Source: Paracoccaceae bacterium
Lineage (GTDB): Bacteria > Pseudomonadota > Alphaproteobacteria > Rhodobacterales > Rhodobacteraceae
Assembly: GCA_033344815.1 (NCBI GenBank)
Contig: JAWPMR010000001.1
Location: forward strand, 606,136 to 670,135
DNA length: 64,000 nucleotides
Direction of reading: 5' to 3'
In this document: positions 43,283 to 52,227 of the stretch, piece by piece
Layout of the letters: each line of letters begins with the position of its first letter
Position numbering within the stretch: the first letter of the stretch is position 1
Notes under the pieces: model-generated
Told to the model about the DNA's origin: nothing
The model's input: only the letters and a program-made list of their open reading frames with translations
Database searches by the model: none
Translations under genes and position numbers: made by a program

Positions 43283-44446
43283 TGAAAGGCGGCGACGTCC
43301 CACACCCGGTTCGTCCCCGATGCTTAGGATCAGGGCAATTACGCCCGCCGCCCTGCTGAACAGCGCCTGCCCCCCTCTGATCGCGGCTGCCTGTATGTAT
43401 CGATCAACTGCTTCGAAAGGCTGCGCACTGCTGTGGAGAAGCCTTGTGACGTCAGCCCTGGTGCTTCATCGAACACCGCGCTTGCCAAAACGACATTCGG
43501 TCTGTTCTGAACCAGGTCATCATTCGCGGGAGAGAATGGAAATCCAAAACCGAAATCGCCTGGTAAACGCGCAAATGGGGTTATGGGGTCAGCATATACC
43601 AAGCTAAAATGTCTCCAGCAAAACCGCAGGGGGGGCGGAGTTCAACACTTGAGCGAACGCTTGGAGTTACCCCAATACCTTTTCTCTGTTGTGGCTCGAT
43701 AACCTTGCTCAGCGGAAGTTCCATCTCAGCTGCGAAGAATTTGGGGATTGAAAATCGCACCCAAAAGGATGTTTACAGCCGCTCGAGTTTTTTGCTTACG
43801 CCCGATATCCCGCAGCAAAACCCTGCGACCTTGGCAAAACCCCCTTGCCTGAAGGTCTTGCTTCGCTTTTTTCCGCCAAGCTCGGCGAGGTTTGGCAAAA
43901 CTGTTTGCGACGCGCTCGAAAGATCCTTCCTCCCATCAAGAAAAATGATTGCGTTGCGCCGCTTATTGCAAGTTAGCGATTTGCCTTTTGTTATATTATA
44001 AAGTAACCTAAATGAAAGTAAGTGGAGCGTACGTGACATGGACACACAGGTTGAAAAACGACAATCCAAAGTCTTGGGTGTTCAATCCAAACACCAGGAA
44101 AATATGATGTTTGCGGGCAAATGAGAGCGCATCAACCGAGCGTTTCGCCCCGCACCATCCTACGCGCGGCTTTATTGCCCGCGGCTCAGGCGCGCGCGCG
44201 TAAACCCAGGTCAATCATGTCTTGGGTAATGTACAGTTACGCGCATCGCATCGCTGATCCATCTCTTTAAATCAACCAAACCTACCCAGCTCATGCCGAG
44301 CACGACGGCGCGCCATTTCGTCAGGCACAAACTTCTGTCTACTCCAAGTCAACCTTACATATCGCACATCACTTCGTCGAAATACATGGGTCCTGCAAAT
44401 ACTGCGCCATATGAAATCAAACCGAAATATCCAAAGGATTACAGAA
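43283..44446. other. Gene-poor region upstream of the zrg-like operon
   Basis: About 1.16 kb without a gene I can support on either strand; small open frames here resemble nothing I know. It contains one notable site, the GTTA-type inverted repeat at 43990-44007 listed separately. The left third may be decayed flank of the IS remnant. Confidence 0.4.
43990..44007. promoter_or_regulatory. AT-rich GTTATATTA-TAAAGTAAC inverted repeat, candidate Zur-type site
   Basis: An imperfect 18-base palindrome (7 of 9 pairs match) with GTTA and TAAC ends, reminiscent of alphaproteobacterial Zur boxes, which have a GTTATA-rich palindrome. The first gene downstream on the plus strand is the zinc-binding ZrgA-like protein, but it starts 440 bases later, far for an operator. 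Assignment is tentative. Confidence 0.25.
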
Positions 44447-45085
44447 ATGAAATCACTCTCACTTCTTGCCCTGCTCTCTCTCAGCGCTTCACCGGTTCTG
44501 GGCGGCGAAACGCGCCAACTTGATGCTCATGAACACGGTGTGGGTCAGTTGGATATCGCCATTGAAGGTACGCGGATTGAAATGGCGTTGCACGCGCCCG
44601 GCGCTGACATCGTCGGTTTTGAATACGCAGCGCGCTCGGCAGAGGACAGAGCGGCCGTCGACGCCGCTGTTGCCATCCTGGCCCGGCCGCTGGATCTGTT
44701 TGTTCTTCCCGGGTCCGCCGGGTGTAGCGTGGTGGCCGCTTCGGCCGAGTTGGAAAGTGAGGCCGCTGAGCATGAAGAACACGCCGGTCACGAGGGTGAA
44801 CACGGGCATGACGATCATGATGAACATGCGCACGACGATGAACACGGGCATGATGATGAACATGCGCATGAGGACCATGAGGAGGCTGCCGGGCACACCG
44901 AGTTTCATGCCGAGTATCAATTGAATTGTGCCGATCCTGCTGCCATCTCCAACATAGGTTTCGTGTATTTCGAAACATTTCCAAATGCTTTGGAGCTGGA
45001 AGTTCAAATCATAACAGAGCGGGGCGCGCAGGCGTTCGAAGTCATGAAAGATGCACCGACGCTGGATCTTCGCGGTATGTTCTGA
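44447..45085 (+). CDS. ZrgA-like (DUF2796) periplasmic zinc-binding protein
   Basis: A secreted protein of 212 residues with signal peptide MKSLSLLALLSLSASPVLGG. After it, DAHEHGVGQLDIAIEG is the DUF2796/ZrgA start. A His/Asp/Glu-rich stretch at about residues 105-160 (repeats such as HDDHDEHAHDDEHGHDDE) is a strong zinc-binding low-complexity segment. The C-terminal domain has FHAEYQLNC and GFVYFETFPNALELEVQ. With the ABC pair and DUF3299 genes that follow, it matches the zinc-regulated ZrgABCDE uptake system described in Vibrio. Zinc capture in the periplasm is the likely role. Confidence 0.85.
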   Translation: MKSLSLLALLSLSASPVLGGETRQLDAHEHGVGQLDIAIEGTRIEMALHAPGADIVGFEYAARSAEDRAAVDAAVAILARPLDLFVLPGSAGCSVVAASAELESEAAEHEEHAGHEGEHGHDDHDEHAHDDEHGHDDEHAHEDHEEAAGHTEFHAEYQLNCADPAAISNIGFVYFETFPNALELEVQIITERGAQAFEVMKDAPTLDLRGMF

Positions 45086-45098
45086 TATCCGTCCCGGC

Positions 45099-45800
45099 GT
45101 GCAAACCCCAACACCGATCGTAAGTCTTGACGACGTCCGTTACCGCTGGCGGGGACAGGATTCCTTTGGCCTGTCCATACCGAAAATGAGCATAAAGACC
45201 GGAGAAACGGTCTTGTTGCTCGGAGAAAGTGGTTCGGGAAAATCTACGCTTCTGTCTTTGATCTGTGGAACAATCACCGCGCAGTCAGGCACTGTATCAG
45301 TGGCCGGAACAGACATTTCCGAGTTACCTGCCGGCAAGCGCGACGGGTTTCGTGCAGAACAGATTGGCCTGATTTTTCAGCAGTTCAATTTACTGCCTTT
45401 CGCTGCTGTTTTAGATAATATCCTGCTGCCTTTGCGCTTCGCTCCGGGCCGGCGCAAGCGCGTGATGTCGCCAGATGAGGAAGCGGAACGGTTGTGCCGA
45501 GATATGGGGTTACCAGAGGAAATCATGACCATGCGTGCTGGTGAATTGAGCGTGGGACAGCAACAAAGGGTCGCGGCGGCCCGCGCCTTGATTGGCACTC
45601 CGCCGCTGATTATTGCCGACGAGCCCACCTCTTCGCTTGATGCGGCAACGCAAAGCACCTTCCTGAATTTGTTGTTCACTCAGTCGCGCGGCAATGACAC
45701 GACGTTATTGATGGTCAGCCACGATGCAAGGTTGGCGGATCAGTTTGACCGCGTCCTGCAGATGAAAGACATCGCTCAGGCCGGGCACACGAGCGCATGA
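45099..45800 (+). CDS. ABC ATPase, LolD/MacB-type (Zrg system)
   Basis: A 233-residue ATPase. Walker A is GESGSGKSTLLSL, Q-loop FQQFNLLPF, signature LSVGQQQRVAAARAL (one change from LSGGQ), Walker B LIIADEPTSSLD, and VSHDARLADQFDR. The GTG at 45099, 13 bases after the zrgA-like stop, gives the expected N-terminus VQTPTPIVSLDDVRYRW. It overlaps the permease gene by 4 bases. It belongs to the class that powers FtsX-type permeases. Confidence 0.9.
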   Translation: MQTPTPIVSLDDVRYRWRGQDSFGLSIPKMSIKTGETVLLLGESGSGKSTLLSLICGTITAQSGTVSVAGTDISELPAGKRDGFRAEQIGLIFQQFNLLPFAAVLDNILLPLRFAPGRRKRVMSPDEEAERLCRDMGLPEEIMTMRAGELSVGQQQRVAAARALIGTPPLIIADEPTSSLDAATQSTFLNLLFTQSRGNDTTLLMVSHDARLADQFDRVLQMKDIAQAGHTSA

Positions 45801-47047
45801 TATTGCGGCTGGCACTTGGCTCGCTGATCGCGCGCGCTCTGACAGTTGCGATGACCATTCTGGCGATTGCCTTGTCTGTCGCGTTATTCTTGGGTGTGGA
45901 AAAAGTACGCACAGGCGCCAAAGCAAGCTTTGCGGATACAATTTCCGGCACCGATCTTATCGTTGGCGCGCGGTCCGGATCGGTACAACTTCTGCTGTAT
46001 TCAGTTTTTCGAATTGGCAATGCCACCAACAACCTCAGTTGGGAAAGCTATTTAGACGTTGCGAACCGGCCAGAAGTGGATTGGATCGTCCCAATTTCAC
46101 TGGGTGACAGCCACCGTCAGTTTCGCGTGATGGGCACCACAGTCGAATATTTCGAGCGTTATAAGTACCGTTCAGGCAGATCACTGGCATTGCGAGAGGG
46201 GGCTGTATTTTCAGACCTGTTTGACACTGTGATCGGCGCTGATGTTGCTGCGACGCTCGGATATGATATCGGGGATCCGATCGTGGTCTCACATGGCATT
46301 GCCTCCTTCAGCCATCATGACGACCAGCCCTTCCGCGTATCGGGTATTCTGGAAAAAACCGGCACGCCCGTGGATCGCACCGTCATCGTCGGCCTGCGCG
46401 CCATCGAGGCCATCCATGTCGATTGGCGCAGTGGTGCCAAAATTCCGGGCCAATCCACGCCCGCTGAGGCAATCCGTCAAATGGATTTGCAACCACAAGC
46501 CATAACAGCAGCCCTTATTGGCGCCAAAAGCCGCCTGCAGGTGTTTGGGTTGCAAAGGTCGATCAACGAATATCCGCTGGAACCGCTTCTCGCGATTCTG
46601 CCCGGCCTCGCGCTGCAGGAGTTATGGCAAATTGTTGGCATCGCCGAAACGGCCCTCATTGCCGTCTCAGGAATGGTGGTGGTGACCGCTCTGATTGGCA
46701 TGATGGCTACGATTTTTTCCAGTTTGAACGAACGGCGCCGGGAAATGGCAATTTTTCGGGCCATGGGCGCGCGACCGCGGGTCATCGTCGGGATGCTGGT
46801 TTTGGAGGCCGCCGTCATGGCGACTGTTGGCGCGCTTTTGGGTTTCGCGCTGCTTTATGTCGCCCTTTTCGTGTCTCAGCCGATGGTGGACCGTGCCTTT
46901 GGCCTTTGGTTGCCCATCGATGCGCCAAGCATGCGCGAATTATGGGTGCTCCTCGGTGTAACCACAGCTGGCGCAATTGTGAGTTTGCTACCGGCGCTGA
47001 GGGCCTATCGAATGTCGCTCGCGGATGGTATGCTCGTGCGAAACTGA
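45797..47047 (+). CDS. FtsX/MacB-type ABC permease (Zrg system)
   Basis: An inner-membrane protein of 416 residues. One membrane helix near the N-terminus (LTVAMTILAIALSVALFLGV) is followed by a large periplasmic domain, then three helices in the C-terminal third, with the FtsX motif SSLNERRREMAIFRAMGARP before the last pair. This is the FtsX/LolC layout. With the ATPase it probably drives a metal-linked process across the envelope with the ZrgA-like and DUF3299 partners. Confidence 0.88.
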   Translation: MILRLALGSLIARALTVAMTILAIALSVALFLGVEKVRTGAKASFADTISGTDLIVGARSGSVQLLLYSVFRIGNATNNLSWESYLDVANRPEVDWIVPISLGDSHRQFRVMGTTVEYFERYKYRSGRSLALREGAVFSDLFDTVIGADVAATLGYDIGDPIVVSHGIASFSHHDDQPFRVSGILEKTGTPVDRTVIVGLRAIEAIHVDWRSGAKIPGQSTPAEAIRQMDLQPQAITAALIGAKSRLQVFGLQRSINEYPLEPLLAILPGLALQELWQIVGIAETALIAVSGMVVVTALIGMMATIFSSLNERRREMAIFRAMGARPRVIVGMLVLEAAVMATVGALLGFALLYVALFVSQPMVDRAFGLWLPIDAPSMRELWVLLGVTTAGAIVSLLPALRAYRMSLADGMLVRN

Positions 47048-47063
47048 AAAGAGGGTCCCACAG

Positions 47064-47579
47064 ATGAAAATCTCACGCCGCAGTCTTTTGACGACAGCAG
47101 CCGTCGGCGCCCTACTCCCCCGCATTGCGCGCGCTTCTGGCCCGCGGCAAATTGGATGGGATGAATTGATCCCGCCAAACGTCCCCTATTCGGAGATCAT
47201 TGGCGAAGGCGAAGTCGACGAACAAAACGACTATTGGCGCCCATTGTTTGATGAAAATGCGACCAAACTGAACGATGCGCTCAACGGAGCATATATCAAA
47301 ATGCCCGGGTATATCATCCCATGGGATGTGACGTCGGCAGGGATCACAAGCTTCATTCTGGTGCCCTATGTCGGGGCGTGCATTCATGTCCCGCCACCGC
47401 CGGCGAACCAACTTGTCTTTGTGACGACACAGACCCCATGGCCGAGCGACACTTTGTGGGAAGCCGTCTGGGTCACGGGCAAAATGCAACACGAATTTCT
47501 GTCCACAGAACTGGCCGACATTGGCTATACGATGCAGGCGGATGCGATGGAAGTTTTTGAATGGGATGAAAACGGATGA
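47064..47579 (+). CDS. DUF3299 protein, Tat-exported (first copy)
   Basis: A probable periplasmic protein of 171 residues. The N-terminus MKISRRSLLTTAAVGALLPR is a Tat-type signal (SRRSLL). The DUF3299 core follows: KMPGYIIPWD, ITSFILVPYVGACIHVPPPP, ANQLVFVTTQ. The VGACIHVPPPPANQ segment contains Cys and His that could bind metal. It overlaps the second DUF3299 gene by 4 bases. Function is unknown; members are found with Zrg-like ABC genes. Confidence 0.85.
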   Translation: MKISRRSLLTTAAVGALLPRIARASGPRQIGWDELIPPNVPYSEIIGEGEVDEQNDYWRPLFDENATKLNDALNGAYIKMPGYIIPWDVTSAGITSFILVPYVGACIHVPPPPANQLVFVTTQTPWPSDTLWEAVWVTGKMQHEFLSTELADIGYTMQADAMEVFEWDENG

Positions 47580-48064
47580 ATCGCAGAACGCTGATGAGGG
47601 GTTTCGGGATGCTCGGCTTGATGCCCGGCACCGCTTTCGCTGATGCCTATCTTGACCTGAATTGGGCTGACCTAGTTCCCGAAGGGGAGAGCTTTATCCC
47701 CCCCTCCCTGCGCGGCGTCATTGATCACAGCTCCTCCAGCCTCATCAGCGAGCAACCCGAATCAAGCGGCCTGCGCACGGATTGGAACGGTCAAATTGTG
47801 CGTTTGCCGGGCTACATCGTGCCCATTGACTACTCTGGCACCGGTGTTACAGCCTTTATCCTGGTTCCATTTGTTGGCGCCTGTGTGCATGTTCCGCCAC
47901 CGCCAGCCAATCAGCTGGTGTTTGTAACCACAGAAAAACCTTACGAAAGTTCGGGCCTGTTTGAGGCTGTCAACGTCATTGGCATGTTTGGGACTGCCTC
48001 GATGACCACGCAATTGGCAGAGATCGGATATGCGCTGTCTGCAGATGAGATCGAACCGTTTTGA
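47576..48064 (+). CDS. DUF3299 protein (second copy)
   Basis: 162 residues, with a shorter hydrophobic leader (MNRRTLMRGFGMLGLMPGTA). The core RLPGYIVPIDYSGTGVTAFI, LVPFVGACVHVPPPPANQLV matches the first copy closely, so the pair arose by tandem duplication, with differing N- and C-termini. It is the last gene of the five-gene operon. Confidence 0.85.
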   Translation: MNRRTLMRGFGMLGLMPGTAFADAYLDLNWADLVPEGESFIPPSLRGVIDHSSSSLISEQPESSGLRTDWNGQIVRLPGYIVPIDYSGTGVTAFILVPFVGACVHVPPPPANQLVFVTTEKPYESSGLFEAVNVIGMFGTASMTTQLAEIGYALSADEIEPF

Positions 48065-48951: not shown

Positions 48952-50004
48952 CTAACGCTTGACCAGCGTCGGCAGGCCAAAGAAGCGCGAAAAAGAAAAC
49001 CCTTCGGCTCCATCTGCCTCTGCTCTTTCGGCGTGTTTGATCACAAGCGGCAGTATGAAATCAGCCATGCGTCCATGGCGCGGAATGGCCGACTCGTTAA
49101 ATGGCTTGCGTTTGCTGATCAAAGAGATCGGGAAATTGGCCATCCGTGCATGTCTGGGGAAAGCGAACTTGTCGGTAGGCTTGCGTTTGCTCAACAGCGA
49201 GATCGGAAAATTGGCCATCCGCGGTCCCTTGGGCATCAATGAGTTGGTGCCCGTTTTGCCATTGATAAGATGCGGAAACGGCCAGTTTGCCATCCTTTGA
49301 TGACGCGGGATCAGCGACCCGGTGTAGGGTTTTCTCTTGCTCAGCAATGGGATCGGAAAATCAGCCATCCGTGCATGACGCGGAAAGGCGAATTTGTCGG
49401 AAGGCTTGCGGTCGCTCAGCAGCGGGATGGGAAAATTGGCCATCCGCGCATGTGGTGCAATGGCAGAACCCGTGTAGGGTTTGCGGCGACTAATCAGAGG
49501 AATTGGCCAATTTGCCATATGCGCATGCCGCGGCTCGAGCAGTGACTCGGCAAAAGGCTTGCGTCGGCTGATCAGCGGGATTGGCCAATCGGCCATGTGA
49601 ACGTTCGTTGCGTAAGGATCTCTGCGTCTGGACAATATTAACGGGTGGTCCTGCAATATGCTGACGCTTGGCGCCACCGGATCCTCGACATAGACCTCTT
49701 CGACCATCTCACCCAGATCTGATGCACCCATCTGTGTCATCACATCACGAGCGGTTTGCGCAACGCTCAGCGGTTTGAAGCCCGCCCGCACCAGCAGAAC
49801 TGCGCCCCCCTTGGACAAGCGTTTTTGATAGGCTTTCGCGGTATCAACATCCACATCTGCGGCTGTCAGATCACCCGTGACGCCGTCTGCGTTTTCATAG
49901 AGCGCCACAATTCTCTGGGAGAACCGTCTCCGATACACCAGCTCGTTTCGTACCGCTCGGGCCTTTTCCGTGCTATCGAAATACCGTGTGATTACCTTCG
50001 TCAT
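48952..50004 (-). CDS. PucE-like protein with eight 25-residue repeats
   Basis: A protein of 350 residues, last gene of the puc operon, overlapping pucC by ATGA. The first 110 residues form an alpha/beta-looking domain (MTKVITRYFDSTEKARAVRN; GGAVLLVRAGFKPL; then MGASDLGEMVEEVYVED). From residue 137 to about 325 runs a strict repeat with Met at 137, 163, 188, 213, 238, 263, 288 and 313, unit (R/H)MA(N/D)(W/F)PIPL(I/L)SxRKP followed by a variable linker. No membrane segment or signal peptide is obvious. It resembles the PucE/PucDE-type accessory proteins of Rhodobacter puc operons from memory; it probably aids LH2 assembly or stability (inference). See findings. Confidence 0.8.
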   Translation of the reverse strand: MTKVITRYFDSTEKARAVRNELVYRRRFSQRIVALYENADGVTGDLTAADVDVDTAKAYQKRLSKGGAVLLVRAGFKPLSVAQTARDVMTQMGASDLGEMVEEVYVEDPVAPSVSILQDHPLILSRRRDPYATNVHMADWPIPLISRRKPFAESLLEPRHAHMANWPIPLISRRKPYTGSAIAPHARMANFPIPLLSDRKPSDKFAFPRHARMADFPIPLLSKRKPYTGSLIPRHQRMANWPFPHLINGKTGTNSLMPKGPRMANFPISLLSKRKPTDKFAFPRHARMANFPISLISKRKPFNESAIPRHGRMADFILPLVIKHAERAEADGAEGFSFSRFFGLPTLVKR

Positions 50005-51461
50005 GACACCTCCACCGGGTTTGTGTTTGCGTTTGAATGCTCAGGACCAGGTACGCACGTCTCCGGCTGATTTCTTCGCTTTTTCATGTTTCTGACAAAA
50101 GGCATCGCCACCGCAATTGCCGATATCAAAAACACAATCTCTATTGTGAATACTACATTGTAGGGCGTTTCAGATGTGTTTCCAGACGCCCCCTGAAAAC
50201 CGATGATGACATCGCGCAAAATGCCTGCCAGCGCGATTCCAATTCCGGCCGATGTCGCCTGTACCGCGCCCCATGCGCCCAAGGCCAGCCCAATGCGTTC
50301 TTTGGGCGCAGCGCGGATTGTCGCTGTCAGCGTTGCGTGGCCAAACAACCCCGCCCCTATCCCGGTCGCCAAAACCCCCATCAGGAACGCGGGGATGCCG
50401 GCCCCTTGAGAGGACAGTATGATCGCAGCAAAACCCGGCACGCCGATCGCCGCACCATAGATCCCGAACCAGGCAGGTGACCCGTTCTGAGCCAGCCCAC
50501 GAGACGCAATACCAAAGCCCAACAGCGTTCCAGCCGCAAAAAGCGCCGTCAGCTTGGTTGTATTCGCAACGGAAAGACCAAGCGCCTGACCTCCGTAGGG
50601 CTCCAGCAAAACGTCCGCCATACCGAAACCAAAAGTGCCCAAGCCAATGACAATCAACAAGCGCAACATGCCTTTTGATTGCATCAGGAGTTTCCATGCA
50701 TCGGAAAAATACATCGGCTCGGCCTGCTTCATCATGCGCGCGCGCTCTCTGTCACGCGGTTCCTGCTGCCACATGGCGTACATGTTCAAACCGACCGTCA
50801 CAACCGCGGCCCCTTGGATCACCTGCGCCAAACGTCCCGCAGAAAAGGTTTCCAGCAGTGCACCAAAAATCAAAGCGCTGACCACCATACCAACCAACAG
50901 CATGACATACATCAAACCGACAACTTTTGGCTGGTCTTGCTCTTTGACAAGATCAGTTGCCAGAGCAAGACCAACGGTTTGCACCATATGCACGCCAGCC
51001 CCGACAAGGAGAAAAGACAGGGCGGCGGAGATGTAACCGAGCCAAAGAGGCGCGTCGGCGGCGTAGCCATAGCGCGATAGCACCAACAGCGCAAAAGGCA
51101 TGATGGCAAAACCACCAAATTGGAAAAGCGTGCCCTTCCAGATATAGGGCACACGGCGCAGCCCCAGTGCAGAAACATGCACGTCGGATTTGAATCCGAT
51201 CAACGTTCTGAATGGGGCAAAAATCAAGGGGAGCGCCAACATAAGCGCAACAAGAGAGGCAGGGACCGACAATTCAACGATCATCACACGGTTCAACGTG
51301 CCCACCAGCAAAACCAGTGCCATACCAACAGTGACCTGAAACAGGGACAGCCTGAGCAGGCGTCGCAGCGGCACTTCGGCTGTCGCCACATCCGCAAACG
51401 GCAGATACTTGGGGCCAAGGGCCGCCAATTTCCGCGTGGCAAAGGCGCTGTAGTCAAACAT
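50001..51461 (-). CDS. pucC: PucC, light-harvesting-2 assembly/BCD-family membrane protein
   Basis: An inner-membrane MFS-like protein of 486 residues with about twelve helices. PucC/LhaA features: LGPKYLPFADVATAEVPLRR near the N-terminus, FAPFRTLIGFKSDVH, LGLRRVPYIWKGTLFQFGGF, and HATLTATIRAAPKERIGLAL. PucC is needed for high-level LH2 formation, probably by bacteriochlorophyll delivery or assembly. The ATG at 51461 is chosen; an in-frame start at 51503 adds 14 residues. A hairpin separates it from pucA. Confidence 0.93.
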   Translation of the reverse strand: MFDYSAFATRKLAALGPKYLPFADVATAEVPLRRLLRLSLFQVTVGMALVLLVGTLNRVMIVELSVPASLVALMLALPLIFAPFRTLIGFKSDVHVSALGLRRVPYIWKGTLFQFGGFAIMPFALLVLSRYGYAADAPLWLGYISAALSFLLVGAGVHMVQTVGLALATDLVKEQDQPKVVGLMYVMLLVGMVVSALIFGALLETFSAGRLAQVIQGAAVVTVGLNMYAMWQQEPRDRERARMMKQAEPMYFSDAWKLLMQSKGMLRLLIVIGLGTFGFGMADVLLEPYGGQALGLSVANTTKLTALFAAGTLLGFGIASRGLAQNGSPAWFGIYGAAIGVPGFAAIILSSQGAGIPAFLMGVLATGIGAGLFGHATLTATIRAAPKERIGLALGAWGAVQATSAGIGIALAGILRDVIIGFQGASGNTSETPYNVVFTIEIVFLISAIAVAMPFVRNMKKRRNQPETCVPGPEHSNANTNPVEVS

Positions 51462-51522
51462 TTCTTTGATCAATTTCCGTTCATACCGCGAAACGCAGTA
51501 CAAACGTCCTCAATTGAGAAAC

Positions 51523-51925: not shown

Positions 51926-52081
51926 TTATCCGAGCCAAGGGGTCGCAAACGCGACCAGAATGTGAGCCAGTAGCGCTATTGCGCCAAAAACGCGCGTGCC
52001 ATCAATAAGATAGCTATGCACCTCTTCTGCCTCGTCGAGCGTCAGGCCTGTTGGCCAAACTTTGTCGTCACTTTCCGCCAT
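51926..52081 (-). CDS. pucB: PucB, LH2 beta polypeptide
   Basis: The beta antenna peptide, 51 residues: the N-terminal [20 protein letters not shown] segment, His22 (near the B800 site) and His40 (ligand of the long-wavelength bacteriochlorophyll), 18 residues apart as required, and C-terminal ATPWLG. One membrane helix spans about 30-48. The ATG at 52081 follows GGAGG (read on the minus strand), and starts further upstream give no LH2 sequence. It is the first gene of the puc operon, with PpsR-type operators 100-150 bases upstream. Confidence 0.94.
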
Positions 52082-52183: not shown

Positions 52184-52201
52184 TGTCACGGATTAATTAC
52201 A
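52184..52201. promoter_or_regulatory. PpsR/CrtJ-type operator, TGT-N12-ACA (proximal)
   Basis: TGTCACGGATTAATTACA matches the TGT-N12-ACA consensus of PpsR/CrtJ, the repressor of photosynthesis genes in purple bacteria. Its centre is about 110 bases upstream of the pucB start. With the second site 8 bases away it forms the tandem arrangement known from CrtJ-controlled promoters. Confidence 0.7.
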
Positions 52202-52209
52202 ATCACAAC

Positions 52210-52227
52210 TGTAAATTTAACCTTACA
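52210..52227. promoter_or_regulatory. PpsR/CrtJ-type operator, TGT-N12-ACA (distal)
   Basis: TGTAAATTTAACCTTACA matches TGT-N12-ACA exactly. It starts 8 bases after the end of the proximal site (52201), the spacing known to support cooperative CrtJ/PpsR binding. The pair lies between pucB and the usp gene, so it could also affect the latter, although usp is more than 600 bases away. Confidence 0.7.

Follow-up and report, generated by a model that had tools for sequence, protein, structure and literature searches.

A repeat protein encoded behind pucC, a candidate accessory subunit of light-harvesting complex 2

Light-harvesting complex 2 (LH2) is usually viewed as consisting of alpha and beta subunits only, with the gamma subunit an oddity of one genus. 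Rhodobacter capsulatus has PucE, a 14-kDa LH2 gamma subunit encoded downstream of pucC, and a 2011 paper by Duquesne reportedly deals with high-800 LH2. The gamma subunit of Rhodopseudomonas palustris (RPA1495; PDB 7zcu chain S) forms an extended, undulating ribbon close to the cytoplasmic side; it surrounds six of the nine alpha/beta pairs, its serines ligate six extra bacteriochlorophylls, and its authors found it in no genus other than Rhodopseudomonas (PMC9618040). A single peripheral antenna peak at about 800–806 nm, with F44-L45 (FL) in alpha, is attributed to Roseobacter litoralis, R. denitrificans, D. shibae, Roseicyclus mahoneyensis and Rubrimonas cliftonensis in a review (PMC12654162). 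Here we analyze a stretch of 64,000 nucleotides (the window) from a Paracoccaceae bacterium (assembly GCA_033344815.1, contig JAWPMR010000001.1, positions 606,136 to 670,135), in which the last gene of a puc operon encodes a protein with a folded N-terminal domain (head) and a repeat array.

This protein is probably an accessory LH2 subunit acting like R. palustris gamma, a ribbon with an added head, a reading to which we assign a probability of about 0.57. We regard it as nearly certain that the gene belongs to LH2. The identity of the protein as a ribbon subunit, suggested by a chain of relatives that runs via a group of homologues termed clade C to gamma, is on this sequence evidence somewhat likelier true than false. 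No description of the repeat-protein family was found among open-licence papers, judged mostly from titles and the starts of abstracts.

The repeat array and the chain of relatives to gamma

The two basic observations of the original prediction held in the open reading frame (ORF): there are eight repeat units, with Met at residues 137, 163, 188, 213, 238, 263, 288 and 313 (spacings of 26, 25, 25, 25, 25, 25 and 25), and the gene stands at the end of the puc operon, behind pucB, pucA and pucC, the last of which it overlaps by 4 nucleotides. The repeats had been called strict, which is true of units 1–4 and nearly so of units 6 and 7, all six being close copies, with FPIS instead of FPIP in the latter two; units 5 (WPFPHLINGKTG) and 8 (FILPLVIKH) differ, and these variants occupy the same place in 63 aligned relatives. 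With a lag of 25, self-matches in residues 112–350 number 78 among 214 positions; in 2000 shuffles no lag from 10 to 60 gave more than 33. Identity is 75% between units at the same place across proteins and 63% between different places within one protein (units 1–7, first 16 residues), and thus the unit places are to some extent individual. The His preceding Met-Ala is invariant or nearly so at residues 160, 185, 210, 235, 285 and 310, and the Ser of the YTGS position is variable, with Phe there in some units. Residues 111–327 carry a net charge of +25, the head 0, and an array-related motif, FFGLPTLVKR, was recognized by eye at the protein end.

A first protein search yielded 391 relatives at E ≤ 0.001, the best 120 of which were combined with the window protein and 43 proteins of the 25-residue type from individually named loci (at least 320 residues) into a set of 164. 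Eight units are aligned in 164 of 164 of these full-length sequences, a count in which some named loci are the same proteins as listed relatives and hence not independent, and in which alignment occupancy scores degenerate units as present. A simple text pattern applied to the best 120 of the 391 relatives gave eight units in 90, seven in 20, nine in seven and six in three; the R. litoralis protein (P0055) is an eight-unit form. By the alignment count, repeat number does not vary at random inside the 25-residue clade. Sister clades have units of 15, 26 or 16 residues behind a related head: the period is 25 in the window protein, 26 in clade B, 32 and 16 in clade C, and 15 in some relatives. 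Their unit numbers are about three, about seven (both by eye) or 12–13, the last in the majority of full-length proteins of the 15-residue clade. Because the sister clades differ in number, the equation of eight units with eight ring subunits is rejected as a rule, and a ratio of one unit to one ring subunit is unproven. In two proteins (L043 and L045) 25-residue and 15-residue units are combined, possibly as intermediates in array evolution. Three clade-C proteins (P0260, P0279 and P0359) are assigned to genomes of Myxococcota, a hint that they were transferred along with photosynthesis genes. Plasmid records gave no match.

The link to gamma comes from clade C. When L188, a clade-C protein of the 16-residue type whose gene adjoins puc genes, was compared with 177,635 PDB sequences using phmmer, LH2 gamma was the top match (E = 0.0062; next, 0.8), and in 17 genomes of the family of L188 nothing but the L188 gene itself matched gamma at E ≤ 0.01. 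Residues 4–94 of gamma were also searched against 360 relatives, the best 120 from each of three clade searches (for clade C, 120 of 338): four of the 120 clade-C proteins matched at E ≤ 0.01 (best 9.7e-5) and 18 at E ≤ 1, and reversed-sequence controls gave 0 of 360 at E ≤ 10. The hhalign probabilities for the heads were 99.9% (clades A–B), 98.1% (B–C) and 94.7% (A–C), with reversed controls at 0.65 (A–C) and 2.5 (B–C). For the tails they were 97.3% (A–B), 95.5% (B–C), 59.7% (A–C) and 31% (gamma–C; E = 5e-4), with reversed-C controls of at most 0.1. Permuted gamma columns scored as high against the L188 tail in one of 1000 trials, and against the sum of four tails in five of 1000. Clade C and gamma have in common a 16-residue period and a G-x-P-L-(I/L) core, and gamma shares with the family an LH2-linked repeat array; however, it has 97 residues and six units, with no head seen, and is not basic, whereas the window protein combines a head with eight units of 25 residues.

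Several results weigh against the ribbon-subunit reading. Gamma matched 0 of 240 proteins of clades A and B at E ≤ 10, including 0 of the 120 closest relatives of the window protein; the window-type tail profile reached only 0.6% against gamma in hhalign; and a three-member clade-C profile (A5) did not recover gamma from the PDB. Permutations scored as high in 22 of 1000 trials for the clade-C tail L182, 235 of 1000 for L184, 11 of 200 for 40 homologues and 201 of 500 for a 15-residue tail. For the window tail they did so in 23 of 500 and, with another setting, 93 of 1000, and direct homology of its array to gamma, seen by eye as PLIxxxxxYxGxS, is therefore not claimed. Gamma has a charge of −2 in 91 residues, unit number and length vary between clades, and the array is disordered in AlphaFold when modelled alone. 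Finally, the joint breakage of pucC and the repeat gene at four loci, which speaks for the reading, may be due to assembly faults (the locus L158 has masked or unknown bases). The long-form profile gave a single chance match in the PDB (E = 2.9).

Docking along the antenna ring, one of the roles originally suggested, is the best-supported idea, by way of the 16-residue clade and gamma, although the window protein itself has no gamma match. The head of about 108 residues would lie in the cytoplasm and the 25-residue array would bind LH2 as a ribbon; that the units hold extra bacteriochlorophyll, and so might contribute to a high-800 spectrum, is speculative. Since distant relatives resemble the gamma ribbon, gamma-like ribbons may be commoner than so far reported.

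The head has a predicted alpha-beta fold similar to that of YflT (PF11181)/PII-like proteins, and relatives show weak YflT profile matches (two of 13 and three of 31). It differs in that a Pfam scan of the window protein itself found no family at E ≤ 1, YflT included; Foldseek with the whole model gave no match at E ≤ 0.001. In public (NCBI) records the long form, for example P0001, is named 'PucR family transcriptional regulator', despite the lack of a PucR match in the window protein.

Linkage to pucC and antenna type

In a sample of 394 Rhodobacteraceae genomes (family judged from the titles of named relatives), the long-form profile matched 48, and 163 had a pucC-like gene at E ≤ 1e-100; the listed pucC-like matches with less than 57% identity are presumably LhaA. 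We took 58 regions, 54 of them around pucC matches of at least 57% identity among the matches listed. Two loci were left out of the comparison of alphas: L140, where neither the gene nor pucA was found, and L152, where the contig ends at pucC and the genome has a repeat-family match on another contig. A repeat-family gene follows pucC in 45 of the 52 usable loci (the census), each time on the same strand as pucC and with its start −60 to +150 nucleotides from the pucC stop; the genomes of the other seven have no long-form-profile match elsewhere. By type, 12 of the 45 are of the 25-residue form, two of the 15-residue form and 31 short, the last class including at least one long form cut by a contig end (L120). 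A long 25-residue form and a short form stand in tandem behind one pucC at L132/L093 (G235:C83).

Homologues outside a puc context, whose existence with unrelated partners would have spoken against a role in LH2, were found in form only: 11 of 62 named loci carry a stand-alone long form (neighbours of six viewed), and ten of the 11 genomes have an LH2-type pucC of at least 66% identity elsewhere, the remaining one having only a 51% match. In these ten genomes alpha reads FL in nine and YL in one, and a repeat-family gene beside the puc operon is missing in three. The 350 nucleotides upstream of the 11 stand-alone genes contain five TGT-N12-ACA sites, which we take to be of the PpsR type, in four genes, against 0.53 expected. 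Beyond Rhodobacteraceae, in a class-wide sample of 385 genomes and a phylum-wide one of 398, all seven array-tailed matches (tail judged by eye) adjoin LH2 genes: L180, L181, L182, L184, L188 and L195 by pucA/pucB, and L196 only by a 57% pucC-like gene. At L180 and L181 the gene and pucBA are on opposite strands.

The window alpha has F44-L45, the motif of single-peak antennae at about 806 nm. In the census, alphas comprise 41 FL and four others at loci with the gene, and 0 FL and seven others at loci without it. The named set, which overlaps the census, has 47 alphas: 42 FL, four YL and one misread, the last being the apparent 'GP' alpha of L043, a misread alignment. On a pucC tree of 55 rows (the 52 census loci plus L182, L184 and L188), rows with the gene are no-donor in 44 cases and donor in four, and rows without it 0 and seven, respectively (Fisher 1.6e-6). 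However, the gene changes independently only twice on this tree (sign test, median p = 0.5), so the association of gene and alpha motif is one at clade level and not a proof. Two gene-bearing loci outside Rhodobacteraceae (L181 and L195) have a YW alpha.

If the protein is an LH2 ribbon, an extra LH2 subunit would be common, with related heads and interchangeable arrays encoded on puc operons of Rhodobacteraceae and other families of its class, and the repeat gene would be a concrete, deletable candidate to account for the single-peak high-800 antennae, so far unexplained, of marine aerobic phototrophs. A further-reaching version seems doubtful to us: that this gene supplies the subunit still missing from the Roseobacter-type LH2 with a single high-800 peak (about 806 nm), a ribbon encircling the whole ring with one bacteriochlorophyll per unit, in a wide family of which R. 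palustris gamma is a head-less offshoot.

Alternative readings

The tight coupling of the gene to pucC may be read differently, with the protein as an LH2 assembly factor that partners PucC, its array transiently gathering nascent alpha/beta pairs or tethering PucC, and that is absent from the mature antenna. The gene start overlaps or closely follows pucC at every one of the 45 loci having the gene there; where pucC is in pieces (L046, L061, L062 and L158), the repeat-family gene is also broken or shortened; and a disordered, multivalent array would fit a scaffold. CsoS2 and EPYC1 are likewise disordered arrays of short binding units, with different partners. Nevertheless, the chain of relatives leads to gamma, a structural subunit, stand-alone copies lie away from pucC, and a fixed unit number with position-specific units exceeds the needs of loose multivalency, and we consider an assembly factor unlikely.

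A single array that links several LH2 rings with one another, or LH2 with the complex of reaction centre and light-harvesting complex 1 (RC-LH1), and so organizes antenna domains in the membrane, is quite improbable. The array is long and basic, and the 12–13 units found in most full-length proteins of the 15-residue clade outnumber the six units of gamma on its one ring; against this, gamma follows a single ring (PMC9618040). It is very improbable that the protein regulates puc expression or senses stress by means of a PII/YflT-like head, the role to which its database name points; Pfam and NCBIfam scans of the window protein gave no PucR or helix-turn-helix domain at E ≤ 1.

Features of the window and side observations

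The coordinates of the operon and of the array are given in Table 1. Compared with its relative L002, the repeat gene has a nonsynonymous divergence (dN) of 0.183 and a synonymous divergence (dS) of 1.31 (repeats alone, 0.157 and 1.257), which indicates a real protein under purifying selection. There are nine TGT-N12-ACA sites in the whole window, two of them above pucB. The puc operon of D. shibae, Dshi_2897–2900, is described as PpsR-controlled in a paper on that species (PMC10890935).

Table 1. Positions of the puc operon genes, protein segments and upstream sites in the window
Feature	Positions	Strand	Basis or remark
Repeat-protein gene, 350 residues, last in puc operon	48952..50004	-	ORF and translation
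Head, residues 1–108, predicted alpha-beta fold	49681..50004	-	Predicted local distance difference test (pLDDT) of 10-residue blocks 78–93
Degenerate leading unit, residues 119–134 (DHPLILSRRRDPYATN)	49603..49650	-	By eye from translation
Unit 1, residues 137–162 (26 residues)	49519..49596	-	
Unit 2, residues 163–187	49444..49518	-	
Unit 3, residues 188–212	49369..49443	-	
Unit 4, residues 213–237	49294..49368	-	
Unit 5, residues 238–262, position-specific variant MANWPFPHLINGKTGTN	49219..49293	-	
Unit 6, residues 263–287	49144..49218	-	
Unit 7, residues 288–312	49069..49143	-	
Unit 8 core, residues 313–327, variant MADFILPLVIK	49024..49068	-	
C-terminal motif, residues 336–350 (FSFSRFFGLPTLVKR)	48955..48999	-	Like FGLPLLSK units of 16-residue clade, by eye
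pucC, PUCC family	50001..51503	-	Family match, 470 bits
pucA, LH2 alpha, F44-L45	51560..51913	-	
pucB, LH2 beta	51926..52081	-	Start set by eye at internal ATG; listed ORF extends to 52189
TGT-N12-ACA site 1, upstream of pucB	52184..52201	.	
TGT-N12-ACA site 2, above pucB	52210..52227	.	

Some profile matches were set aside. L183, L185–L187, L189–L191 and L202 are, by eye, general YflT-type proteins without an array. L201, a clade-C profile match from another class, is a 540-residue open frame with PLFSRFPIPLHRLFGVFRDALSFVI-type repeats; it showed neither a head domain nor, within about 1.5 kb (3.3-kb region), any puc gene, and was taken as unrelated.

Elsewhere in the window, positions 44411–48064 hold a row of consecutive genes for a His/Asp/Glu-rich protein (DHDEHAHDDEHGHDDEHAH), an ABC ATPase and an FtsX-like permease (by eye), and two DUF3299 proteins (Pfam), perhaps a metal-handling locus.
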